Assembly: GCF_006704265.1 (NCBI RefSeq)
Contig: NZ_VIKA01000027.1
Location: forward strand, 1-32,550
Source: Elioraea sp. Yellowstone
GTDB lineage: Bacteria; Pseudomonadota; Alphaproteobacteria; Acetobacterales; Acetobacteraceae
DNA: 32,550 bases
Direction: 5' to 3'
Below the pieces are notes generated by a model that had not been told where the DNA came from, did no database searches, and saw only the letters and a program-made list of their open reading frames with translations. The translations under genes were made by a program, and so were the position numbers. Below are positions 14,398-24,478 of this stretch, one piece after another. Every line of letters begins with the position of its first letter. Positions within the stretch are counted from its first letter, which is position 1.

Positions 14398-14406
14398 GGA
14401 GTGCGC

Positions 14407-21417: not shown

Positions 21418-22116
21418 GTGCAGGACGCGTCCGAGCTAGGGTTGCGCCCCGCGCCGGGCGGATGGACCGAGGCCGAACCGCCGCCCCCGCTGCCGGAGGG
21501 CGGCAATGGCCGCCACCTGCCGGTCTCCGCCCTGATGCTGGAACTCGCGCGTGCCTGGCCGAAGCCGCGCATCTCGCTCGGCGAGATGATCCACGCCTTC
21601 GGCGCCCGCGGCTACGGCATCCTGATCATCCTGTTCGCGCTGCCCAACCTCCTGCCGATCTACATCCCGGGCTGGTCGCCGATCTTCGGCATCCCGCTCG
21701 CGATCGTCTGCCTGCAGCTCGCGCTCGGCTTTCCCGAGCCGCGCCTGCCGCGCCTCCTGACCGAGCGTTCGATGAAGCGCGAGGACCTGCACATGATCGT
21801 CGAGAAGGCGATCCCCTGGGTGCGGCGCATCGAACGCTATGTCCGTCCGCGTCCGTCGGTGCTGACCGGCTGGAAGGCCGATCGCCTGGTCGGCGCGTAC
21901 GGGGTGTTCCTCGCCCTGCTCGTGATCGTGCCGCTGCCCTTCACCAACGGCCCCCCGAGCCTCGCCTGCGCGATCATGGCGATGGGCCTCCTGGAGGAGG
22001 ACAGCCGCGCGGTCGTCGTCGGCGCGGTCGTCGGGATCGGCGCGACCCTGCTCGCGCTCTCGATCATCGGCGGGCTGTTCTGGGTGGTGGTGAAGGCGAT
22101 CGGCTTCGCGTTCTGA
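21418..22116 (+). CDS. exoD: Exopolysaccharide synthesis protein ExoD family
   Basis: A 232-residue inner-membrane protein of the ExoD family, first linked to exopolysaccharide production and nodule invasion in Sinorhizobium; the biochemical function is unknown. Seen: SLGEMIHAFGARGYGILIILFALPNLLP (in parts SLGEMIHAFGARGYG and FALPNLLP), PIFGIPLAIVCLQLALG, RWR-like RRIERYVRPRP before the second membrane block, and PLPFTNGPPSLACAIMAMGL, followed by a C-terminal membrane helix. About four to five hydrophobic segments. GTG 21418 is chosen because AAGGGGA lies directly upstream and the length suits the family; ATG 21250 would add 56 non-homologous residues. Confidence 0.88.
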   Translation: MQDASELGLRPAPGGWTEAEPPPPLPEGGNGRHLPVSALMLELARAWPKPRISLGEMIHAFGARGYGILIILFALPNLLPIYIPGWSPIFGIPLAIVCLQLALGFPEPRLPRLLTERSMKREDLHMIVEKAIPWVRRIERYVRPRPSVLTGWKADRLVGAYGVFLALLVIVPLPFTNGPPSLACAIMAMGLLEEDSRAVVVGAVVGIGATLLALSIIGGLFWVVVKAIGFAF

Positions 22117-22160
22117 GCGGCCACTTCCGCCTCGCTCACATCCGCGCTAGCGTACCCGCG

Positions 22161-22341
22161 GCGCCGGTGGCCCGCACGGGCTGAAACGGGAACGCGGTCG
22201 GGGGCGACAGCCCCGAAGCCGCGGCTGCCCCCGCAACTGTGGGCGGAGGGCGGCCTGCCACATGCCACTGGGGCTCCGCCCCGGGAAGGCGGCAGGCCGC
22301 AAAGGAGGACATCCGACTCCGCGAGCCAGGAGACCGGCCGG
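22161..22341 (+). ncRNA. Cobalamin (B12) riboswitch
   Basis: The conserved core elements occur in order: GAAACGGGAACGCGGT (about 22183-22198), CCGAAGCCGCGGCTGCCCCCGCAACTGT (short pieces CCGAAGCCG and CCCCGCAACTG, 22212-22239), the B12-box-like GCCACTG (22264-22270), CGGGAAGGC (22282-22290), and the 3' GAGCCAGGAGACC (22323-22335). These match adenosylcobalamin-type riboswitches. It precedes a BtuB-type receptor gene, the expected target for repression when B12 is plentiful. Open reading frames across 22117-22513 are not coding. Confidence 0.95.
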
Positions 22342-22460
22342 CGCCGGTCGTTCGCGCGCGTCGGGCGGGGTGCACCGGCGCAACGGACCGAGTCCGCATG
22401 CGGCGACACCGGCCTGGACCTGCCGCGCGAGGAGGCGGACGAGACGTGCTGACATCGCCC

Positions 22461-22510
22461 CGGCTTCCGGCACGGCGGGACCTCGGCCGTCCCTGCCACC
22501 ACGGGAGCCG
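22461..22510 (+). promoter_or_regulatory. Predicted RBS-sequestering hairpin of the B12 leader
   Basis: CGGCTTCCG (22461-22469) can pair over all nine bases (one G-U) with CGGGAGCCG (22502-22510), which contains the SD GGGAG of the receptor gene. Nested inside, GGCGGGAC (22474-22481) pairs with GTCCC-T-GCC (22489-22497) with one bulge. This fits translational control by the riboswitch. Folding energies were not calculated. Confidence 0.55.
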
Positions 22511-22513
22511 ACC

Positions 22514-24478
22514 TTGCGCACATATTCGCTCGCCTGCGCGGCCGCCGCCGCGCTGATCGCCACGCCTGCCGCGGGCCAGAACGGCCCGCCGCTCAGCACC
22601 CTGCCCGAGACGGTCGTCACCGCGACGCGCATCCCGACGCCGATCGAGCGCATCCCCGCCGGCGTGACGGTGATCGATCGCGCGACCATCGAGGCGCGGG
22701 GCTATCGCAGCCTGGCCGAGGCGCTCGCCGGCGTGCCGGGGCTCGGCGTGGTGCAGTCGGGCGGCACCGGCCAGACCACCAGCGCCTTCCTGCGCGGCAC
22801 CAATTCCGGGCACGTGCTGGTGCTGCGCGACGGCATGCCGCTCAACGATCCCTCGACGCCGCAGGGCCTGTTCGATTTCGGCAACGACCTGCTGTCGGAC
22901 GTGGAGCGGATCGAGGTGATCCGCGGGCCGATGTCCGGGCTCTACGGCTCGGGCGCGATCGGCGGGGTGGTGAACCTGATCACGCGCTCGGGCCGCGGCA
23001 CCGGCCGTCCCTTCACCGCGACCGGCGAGATCGCGGGCGGGTCGCAGTCCACCGCCGCGGCGAGCGCGGCCGTCGCGGGCGAGACGCGCGGCTTCGACTA
23101 CGCGCTGGTCGGCCAGGGACTCTCGACGCAGGGCTTCAACATCGTCCCGCGCCGGCTCGCGACCTCGATCGGCGAACGCGACGGCGCCCGCATCGGCACC
23201 GCGACCGCCCATCTCGGCGCGCAGCTCGGCGAGCGGTTCCGCGTCTTCGGCTTCGCGCGTTGGCGCGAGAACAAGGCGGATCTGGATCAGGCTGGCCGGG
23301 ACGATCCGAACTACACCGCGCGCAACCGCTCCGGGATGTGGCGCACGGGCGTCGAGGGCGCAGTGATCCCGGGCTGGCTCGACACCACGCTCGCGGTCGG
23401 GCAGTCGCGCGACAGCCGCCAGTTCCGCGACCGGCCCGACCAGTTCCCGTTCTCCGGCAGCGACGATTCGCGCTATCTCGGCACGCGCACGGTCTACCAG
23501 TGGGACAGCACGCTGCGCCTGCCGGATGCCGGCCCGGTGGATGCCGCCGCGGTCACCTTCGGGCTGCAGCGGATCGAGGACCGCGTCGATGTGCAGGTGC
23601 GCTTCGACGGCCCGTTCGGCCCGTTCAACCAGGATGTCGATCGGGGCACGCGCAACGATGCCGGGTATCTCGGCGCGCAGTTCCGGCTGTTCCGGCGCCT
23701 CGACCTGACGGCGAACCTGCGCCACGAGGCGCCACGCGACTTCGCCGACACCACCACCTGGCGCCTGGGTGGGGTGCTCGCGCTGCCGGAGGTCGCGCTC
23801 ACGGTGCACGCGGCCTACGGCACCTCGTTCCGCGCCCCGACGCTGTTCGACCTGTTCGGCGTCGGCAGTTTCGGCTTCCGCGGCAATCCGAATCTCAGGC
23901 CCGAGAAGGGACGCGGCGGCGAGGCGGGGGTCGCGCTCGACCTCGGCGCCCTCGGCCTGCCGCCCGGACGGCTCTCGGCGACCTATTTCCGCACCCGCAT
24001 CACCGACCTGATCGACGACGATCCGGCCTTCACCACGCGCATCAATGTCGGGCGCGTCGAGATCGAGGGGGTGGAGAGCGCGTTCGACATGACCCTCGCG
24101 CCGTGGCTTGCGCTGCACGCCGCCCATGCCTGGACGGTGGCGCAGGACGCCGACAGCGGACTGCAACTGCTGCGTCGGCCGCGCCACCAGGGCAGCCTGG
24201 CCGCGACGCTGCGGGCCGATCCGCGGCTCTCGCTCACGCCCGAGCTCCTGGTGTTCGGCCCGGCGGCGGACGCGATCTACGCCGACAGCGGCGCGTTCCT
24301 CGGCCGCGGCACCAACCCGGGCGGCGTGGTGGTGAATCTGACCGCGCGCTGGCGCGCGACGGAGACGCTCGAGTTCTTCGCGCTCGGCCGCAACATCACG
24401 AACAGCCGCTACGAGCCGGCGAACAGCTACGTGGTGCCCGGCGCGGCCGTGCTGGTGGGGCTGCGCGCCGGGCTCTGA
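22514..24478 (+). CDS. btuB: TonB-dependent outer-membrane receptor, BtuB-like (cobalamin uptake)
   Basis: A 654-residue outer-membrane barrel. The signal peptide covers residues 1 to about 21 (SLACAAAAALIATPAAGQ), then the TonB box ETVVTATR, a plug domain with GYRSLAEALAGVPGLGVVQSG (short: EALAGVPGLGV), FLRGTNSGHVLVLRDG, VERIEVIRGPMSGLYGSGAIGG (short: IEVIRGPMSGLYGSGAIGG), and a C-terminal beta barrel ending in hydrophobic-aromatic alternation (PGAAVLVGLRAGL). The start is TTG 22514: GGGAG at 22503-22507 is well spaced and no in-frame ATG lies close. The upstream cobalamin riboswitch supports vitamin B12 as cargo. The stop codon lies inside a 20-bp hairpin stem. Confidence 0.93.
   Translation: MRTYSLACAAAAALIATPAAGQNGPPLSTLPETVVTATRIPTPIERIPAGVTVIDRATIEARGYRSLAEALAGVPGLGVVQSGGTGQTTSAFLRGTNSGHVLVLRDGMPLNDPSTPQGLFDFGNDLLSDVERIEVIRGPMSGLYGSGAIGGVVNLITRSGRGTGRPFTATGEIAGGSQSTAAASAAVAGETRGFDYALVGQGLSTQGFNIVPRRLATSIGERDGARIGTATAHLGAQLGERFRVFGFARWRENKADLDQAGRDDPNYTARNRSGMWRTGVEGAVIPGWLDTTLAVGQSRDSRQFRDRPDQFPFSGSDDSRYLGTRTVYQWDSTLRLPDAGPVDAAAVTFGLQRIEDRVDVQVRFDGPFGPFNQDVDRGTRNDAGYLGAQFRLFRRLDLTANLRHEAPRDFADTTTWRLGGVLALPEVALTVHAAYGTSFRAPTLFDLFGVGSFGFRGNPNLRPEKGRGGEAGVALDLGALGLPPGRLSATYFRTRITDLIDDDPAFTTRINVGRVEIEGVESAFDMTLAPWLALHAAHAWTVAQDADSGLQLLRRPRHQGSLAATLRADPRLSLTPELLVFGPAADAIYADSGAFLGRGTNPGGVVVNLTARWRATETLEFFALGRNITNSRYEPANSYVVPGAAVLVGLRAGL

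Follow-up and report, generated by a model that had tools for sequence, protein, structure and literature searches.

We found that the leader of a BtuB-like receptor gene in the analysed stretch of Elioraea DNA (the whole 32,550 nucleotides, hereafter the window) combines a cobalamin aptamer and a kissing-loop hairpin with a downstream stem that pairs the Shine-Dalgarno (SD) sequence of the gene. The leader is best read as an ordinary cobalamin riboswitch that acts on translation, of the same kind as that of E. coli btuB and with a long linker, and the hairpin as the off-position of a B12 riboswitch in which the ribosome-binding site would be hidden, its coupling to the ligand being predicted from the known system. 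We consider it likely that the leader acts as the expression platform of an RF00174 riboswitch and controls translation of the BtuB-like B12 receptor. Sequence comparison supports the aptamer, the kissing loop, P13 and the SD stem together with its upkeep in relatives; from the model of E. coli btuB, we infer the direction of control (repression by B12) and the link from P13 to the SD stem. This kind of riboswitch is already well known, and a literature search with the topics combined found no publication on btuB B12 riboswitches of Acetobacteraceae. The features of the leader are collected in Table 1.

Table 1. Features of the receptor gene and its leader, in positions of the window.
Feature	Position	Strand	Remarks
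Cobalamin riboswitch aptamer, RF00174	22148-22356	+	cmscan 89.7 bits, gathering 31.5, full model 1-189
Loop L5, CCCCCG	22228-22233	+	kissing partner of L13; cmscan structure line; covaries with L13
P13 hairpin	22358-22381	+	GCGUCGG 22358-22364 / CCGGCGC 22375-22381; directly after the aptamer
Loop L13, GCGGGGUGCA	22365-22374	+	CGGGG 22366-22370 complementary to L5
Small hairpin after P13 ('P14')	22384-22396	+	CGGAC 22384-22388 / GUCCG 22392-22396
Conserved block GGAGGCGGAC	22431-22440	+	22431-22436 complementary to anti-SD arm 22463-22468 (helix H3)
SD stem, 5' (anti-SD) arm	22461-22469	+	CGGCTTCCG, read directly
Inner hairpin	22474-22497	+	minimum-energy fold of the SD hairpin alone
SD stem, 3' arm	22502-22510	+	CGGGAGCCG, read directly
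SD, GGGAG	22503-22507	+	inside the 3' arm, 6 nt upstream of the start codon
BtuB-like TonB-dependent receptor	22514-24478	+	TTG start, 654 aa; Pfam Plug and barrel

The nine-base-pair hairpin over the SD that the sequence-only reading had described is present, with eight Watson-Crick pairs and one U-G pair (22466-22505), and it surrounds a second hairpin as claimed. Its 3' arm stops 3 nt short of the TTG. The end of the aptamer match lies 104 nt from the stem and 146 nt from the SD, and the earlier figure of about 120 bases downstream of the aptamer was roughly right.

Taken singly, the window's SD stem is marginally beyond chance. The best uninterrupted helix over at least four of the six SD bases has an energy of -15.2 kcal/mol, and when the 75 upstream bases were shuffled 1000 times with dinucleotides preserved, a helix that good arose in 46 cases. 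A search for the stem, with a pattern derived from the sequence itself, hit the window once and failed to hit any of 100 shuffles. For comparison, we used 52 other genes of the genome, with the receptor frame excluded and the starts chosen with the codon-position GC change; the calls are crude, and the genes are unrelated ones taken with a constant 95 bases of upstream sequence rather than matched leaders. An SD helix of equal strength occurred in two of the 52, and opening the region from the SD to the start costs 10.5 kcal/mol, which is average (23/52 genes were as costly). Neither 22340-22540 (z 0.60; 143/200 shuffles equally stable) nor 22148-22540 (z -1.38; 6/100 shuffles) is unusually stable. 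In a genome this rich in GC, finding the SD paired in a fold counts for little, and the stem is convincing because it is kept in all six congeners, not because of the single sequence.

The leader was matched in all seven Elioraea genomes, the window's own included, and all seven leaders were read. Each has a stem of 8-10 bp over the SD, and the stem comes in two distinct sequence versions. In the window, G003 and G005, CGGCUUCCG is paired with CGGGAGCCG or UGGGAGCCG. The four other Elioraea leaders have a second version, which reads CUUCGGUCU/AGACCGAGG in two of them, is one pair longer in G006 (CCUUCGGUCU/AGACCGAAGG) and is one pair shorter in G004 by loss of an end pair. When folded alone, all seven hairpins had the SD paired at least partly and the inner hairpin present; SD helices as good were found in 0-53 of 1000 shuffles across the seven leaders. 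None of the six congeners keeps the aptamer and loses the anti-SD pairing, the combination that the sequence-only reading had named as evidence against it. Among the window, G003 and G005, the variable columns number 0/9 in the 5' arm, 1/9 in the 3' arm, 10/20 in the preceding linker and 6/32 in the enclosed part. The conserved block 22431-22440 has 0/10 variable columns, compared with 10/20 in the next 20 bases. The sole variable column of the 3' arm is 22502, a C to T change in both G003 and G005. Changes within the clades are one-sided: C to U at 22502 keeps a G-U pair, and U-G becomes U-A in G006.

The two Elioraea clades are out of register in the 10-sequence alignment, so that the homologous pairs, and hence the number of compensatory ones, are ambiguous, and we left column-wise pair counts for the SD stem out of the evidence. 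By column, only 4-5 of the nine pairs are found in the four other Elioraea leaders and three leaders of the genus g46 (G051, G125 and G126); each Elioraea clade nevertheless has an SD stem of its own. Local SD stems are present in all three g46 leaders as well; they are weaker, with 5-7 uninterrupted pairs, and singly lie within chance (84-252 of 1000 shuffles as good). An SD-containing stem kept in relatives, as seen in these comparisons, would place the leader among translational platforms of the E. coli btuB kind.

We extended the comparison to btuB leaders across the family. When 120 genomes sampled from the family were searched at the DNA level, 64 had matches with an E value of 1e-15 or lower, and 66 places were found, from which one at a contig end (G103) was left out. 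The 69 loci contained 70 B12-box sites, of which 54 are followed by a BtuB-like frame; the 16 lacking a BtuB-like hit downstream within the locus were dropped, as was L052, which has an unclear start. This left 53 leaders, seven of them from Elioraea, with starts chosen by rule or, in L014, L048, L049 and L075, set by hand. In L014 (G051, minus strand, leader 1383-1574), a good SD precedes an ATG that is not in frame with the BtuB-like sequence, which is either a sequencing error or a broken gene. For the swap tests, the near-duplicates L004, L007, L009 and L018 were removed, leaving 49 leaders. The swap test compares the complementarity of the SD flank to its own upstream with that to the upstreams of other leaders, and separates pairing from GC content.

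The aptamer of the window scores above the gathering threshold and has the kissing loop, which identifies the leader as a probable RF00174 member with predicted corrinoid binding. The sequence-only reading overlooked the P13 kissing-loop hairpin, the part expected to carry the signal; the available text of two papers on cobalamin riboswitches describes the kissing loop as the sensor of the binding state (PMC9600662, PMC10653944). Among the 53 leaders, L5 and L13 read CCCCCG and CGGGG in 40, CCCUCG and CGAGG in 10, and CCCUCG and CGGGG, with a U-G pair, in one, no L5 being located in the other two; both loops thus changed together in 10 of the 51 leaders in which both could be read. The core of P13 is supported by the swap test (p 0.0002, 49 leaders); an extended P13 (p 0.12) and the lower P13 (p 0.51) are not and were rejected. 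In 10 leaders, 100% of the lettered cells of P13 and 80% of the cells of the small hairpin are paired, the latter with weak swap support (p 0.043). Together, the two hairpins are 91.1% paired versus 28.6-36.6% for slid versions; these counts did not exceed the shuffle control because few columns vary.

The SD flank fits its own upstream best 14 bases before the SD, with a residual of -1.55 kcal/mol and p 0.0002 (49 leaders, 19 offsets; this and the other swap-test p values come from related sequences and carry no correction for shared ancestry or the number of offsets). Offsets from -8 to +1 gave p 0.001-0.005, and weaker values were obtained at -29 (p 0.011) and at -23, -17, -11 and +4 (p 0.016-0.047). 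The effect is gone at +7 (p 0.45), with p 0.06-0.60 at later offsets. It persists when partners within 14 bases of the SD are removed (p 0.0004-0.034 from -8 to +6; 0.48 at +8). For the 52 other Elioraea genes, one of the 12 offsets gave p 0.049 and the remaining 11 gave p 0.13-0.90. Absolute energies are alike in the btuB leaders and the 52 genes, and the difference is confined to the own-specific part. Compared with per-leader shuffles, SD pairing in the 53 leaders is slightly raised (mean 0.71 versus 0.64; Wilcoxon p 0.0016); five leaders reach 5% or better, and for the seven Elioraea leaders 1, 44, 9, 16, 15, 38 and 21 of 100 shuffles were as SD-paired.

In the transcript folded to 22540, the SD stem has a probability of 0.92 without constraints, 0.95 if the aptamer is fixed and 0.89 if P13 is fixed as well; for the fragment 22340-22540, the value was about 0.6. 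Folding with and without the aptamer constrained, a check proposed in the sequence-only reading, hence gave no ligand effect on the SD stem, the kissing loop being outside the program's model. Of the translational control proposed there, the SD-hiding stem stands, as relatives keep it, and the aptamer dependence does not emerge from folding.

A switch of the E. coli btuB kind would need a partner that occupies the anti-SD arm in the ON state. The anti-SD arm contains GCUUCC, to which GGAGGC at 22431-22436 is complementary. When the transcript ends at 22490-22520, GGAGGC holds this arm with a probability of about 0.5, either in free folding or with the aptamer and P13 fixed, and of 0.12-0.54 when the aptamer is the only fixed part; when the transcript extends to 22540 or 22600, the SD stem prevails over this pairing (0.89-0.99). 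The anti-SD arm fits its own upstream better than those of others (p 0.010; the 45 of 49 leaders with enough upstream sequence), which supports a putative ON partner in general and not GGAGGC specifically. GGAGGC may be taken as a weakly supported candidate for the anti-anti-SD, the ON-state partner of the anti-SD arm. Two other pairings were rejected. Pairing of the 3' side of P13 with a downstream output stem, after the Priestia megaterium model, had no own-specific complementarity at 20 offsets (lowest p 0.12). In four Elioraea leaders, the strand that follows P13 can form a helix of 10-11 bp with the interior of the SD hairpin; by eye, this helix is bulged in the window and lost in G003 and G005, and we did not adopt it as the ON state because it breaks up in the near clade.

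The switch that we propose would work as follows. With B12 bound, L5 of the aptamer would kiss L13 and P13 would be held, and the downstream RNA would settle with the SD paired to the anti-SD arm, so that ribosomes would be excluded. Without B12, the anti-SD arm would be occupied by another strand, most likely GGAGGC, leaving the SD free. It is doubtful that P13, without touching the SD stem, triggers a succession of short helices that exclude one another along the linker of about 80 nt. Such a chain would comprise the 22384-22396 hairpin, 22392-22397 with 22435-22440, the SD-mimicking GGAGGC (22431-22436) with the anti-SD arm, and the anti-SD with the SD, and the signal would travel by alternation of partners. 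The sequences of its middle helix, GUCCGC (22392-22397) and GCGGAC (22435-22440), are in register in five of six leaders (three from the near clade and three from g46), and in all six by eye if a one-base shift in G125 is allowed; the four other Elioraea leaders have, by eye, a differently spelled counterpart. The folding probability of this helix is 0.00-0.01, and the extended P13, the would-be trigger, shows no covariation support (p 0.12).

The near-constant probability of the SD stem, irrespective of the state of the aptamer, would also fit a constitutive damper, in which the hairpin reduces initiation at all times and B12 has its effect at another point, such as Rho-dependent termination in the leader or the early coding region. 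The E. coli btuB riboswitch does trigger Rho-dependent termination; according to the same available text, however, this effect comes along with SD control (PMC11162775). Moreover, a damper of this type does not readily account for own-specific SD-flank complementarity that occurs in riboswitch-led btuB leaders and hardly in the 52 other genes, and we assign it a small, though not negligible, probability. A more general objection is that, in a GC-rich leader, the SD will find some partner anyway: shuffles equal the stem at times, the opening cost is average for the genome, and shuffled leaders already pair the SD at a mean of 0.64. Against this stand the retention of the stem in 7/7 Elioraea leaders in two sequence versions, the conserved arms adjoining a variable linker, and the swap test on 49 leaders with its gene control. 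Chance pairing is unlikely given these comparisons, and we put its probability very low.

A leader peptide, starting at ATG 22398 or in another short frame, could carry the control through its own translation instead of SD hiding. The frame from ATG 22398 is open to 22556 in the window, and leader peptides have been proposed for Mycobacterium B12 riboswitches in the available part of PMC11260477. However, this ATG is ACG in four of the seven Elioraea leaders, and the variable columns of the linker (10/20) have, by eye, no codon pattern, which makes this explanation extremely improbable. The translational riboswitch thus remains our preferred reading.

By eye, the receptor begins with a signal-peptide-like segment; a TonB plug and barrel come after it. 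Its best NCBIfam hit is TIGR01779 (TonB-B12) with 260.8 bits, and we named it BtuB-like because this falls under the equivalog cut-off of 599.7. The closest named relatives found for the gene are from Elioraea tepidiphila DSM 17972 and an uncultured Elioraea; NCBI taxonomy places Elioraea in Elioraeaceae, Acetobacterales. TTG 22514 is very probably the real start: it aligns with a GTG of four congeners, the only other in-frame start listed nearby lies far upstream inside the leader, and a start finder based on the codon-position GC change selected 22514 with the answer not supplied. The Elioraea leaders start with TTG (3/7) or GTG (4/7), and the 53 leaders with ATG (40), GTG (8), TTG (4) or CTG (1). 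TTG is an uncommon start in this genome, used in 4 of 53 gene calls with the receptor counted, and low basal initiation is therefore plausible. The suggestion that the TTG is part of the control was not borne out: congeners use TTG or GTG, and strong SD stems occur with ATG starts too, e.g. in L020 and L077, so that the start codon is no evidence about the switch.

The genome has two cobalamin riboswitches, including that of the window. The other one (L001, G000:C14:7301-7514, minus strand, 94.1 bits) lies directly before a metE-like gene, recognised by models of B12-independent methionine synthase and cut by the locus end, with 43 nt from the aptamer match to the metE-like ATG. The window also contains a glycine riboswitch (RF00504, 14254-14361, 54.9 bits) upstream of a gcvT-like frame with a GTG start at 14401; a gcvP-like frame comes next, from 15897, both gene names being assigned by eye on the translations.

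The E. coli btuB riboswitch, as described in the available text of PMC11162775, has P13 in the pseudoknot, a stem governing access to the SD, and an anti-anti-SD with which the anti-SD is paired in the ON state. The window resembles it in the aptamer, the P13 kissing loop, the separate SD stem and the btuB-type receptor gene, whereas for the third part, the anti-anti-SD, it offers a candidate only. It also differs in its TTG start and in the stretch between the end of P13 and the SD stem, which contains the small hairpin and the conserved block and measures 79 nt, a figure for the window only. The corrinoid riboswitch of P. megaterium metE has a terminator as output, and when it is ON, the 3' side of P13 is paired to the output stem (PMC10653944, available text). 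In the window, by contrast, pairing of the 3' side of P13 lacks support, and no terminator-like site was found in 22050-22700, a scan of little power because the DNA is so GC-rich (shuffles average 0.0); a sigma-70 promoter scan run alongside found none either.

With the other btuB leaders of the family (53 in the set), the window shares the aptamer type, P13 and L13 and, as a set, the own-specific complement of the SD flank. In L039, L046, L049, L066 and L077, the best 5' arm lies just after or inside the small hairpin that follows P13, whereas in Elioraea it stands 21-32 nt before the 3' arm, the gap between the arms of the stems. In four of these five (L039, L046, L049 and L077), the best SD-touching helix (5' arm CCGCAGGC...) starts within the 3' arm of the small hairpin, so that the two are directly mutually exclusive; this overlap is absent from the Elioraea leaders.

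As a single locus, the leader represents ordinary B12 control of B12 uptake. Across the group, the results suggest that hiding of the SD is kept in B12-receptor genes while the 5' arm shifts in position and letters, alongside an aptamer and a kissing loop that are nearly fixed. These leaders may therefore provide a natural series for the question of how the binding state promotes alternative platform structures, which is called open in the available text of PMC10653944.
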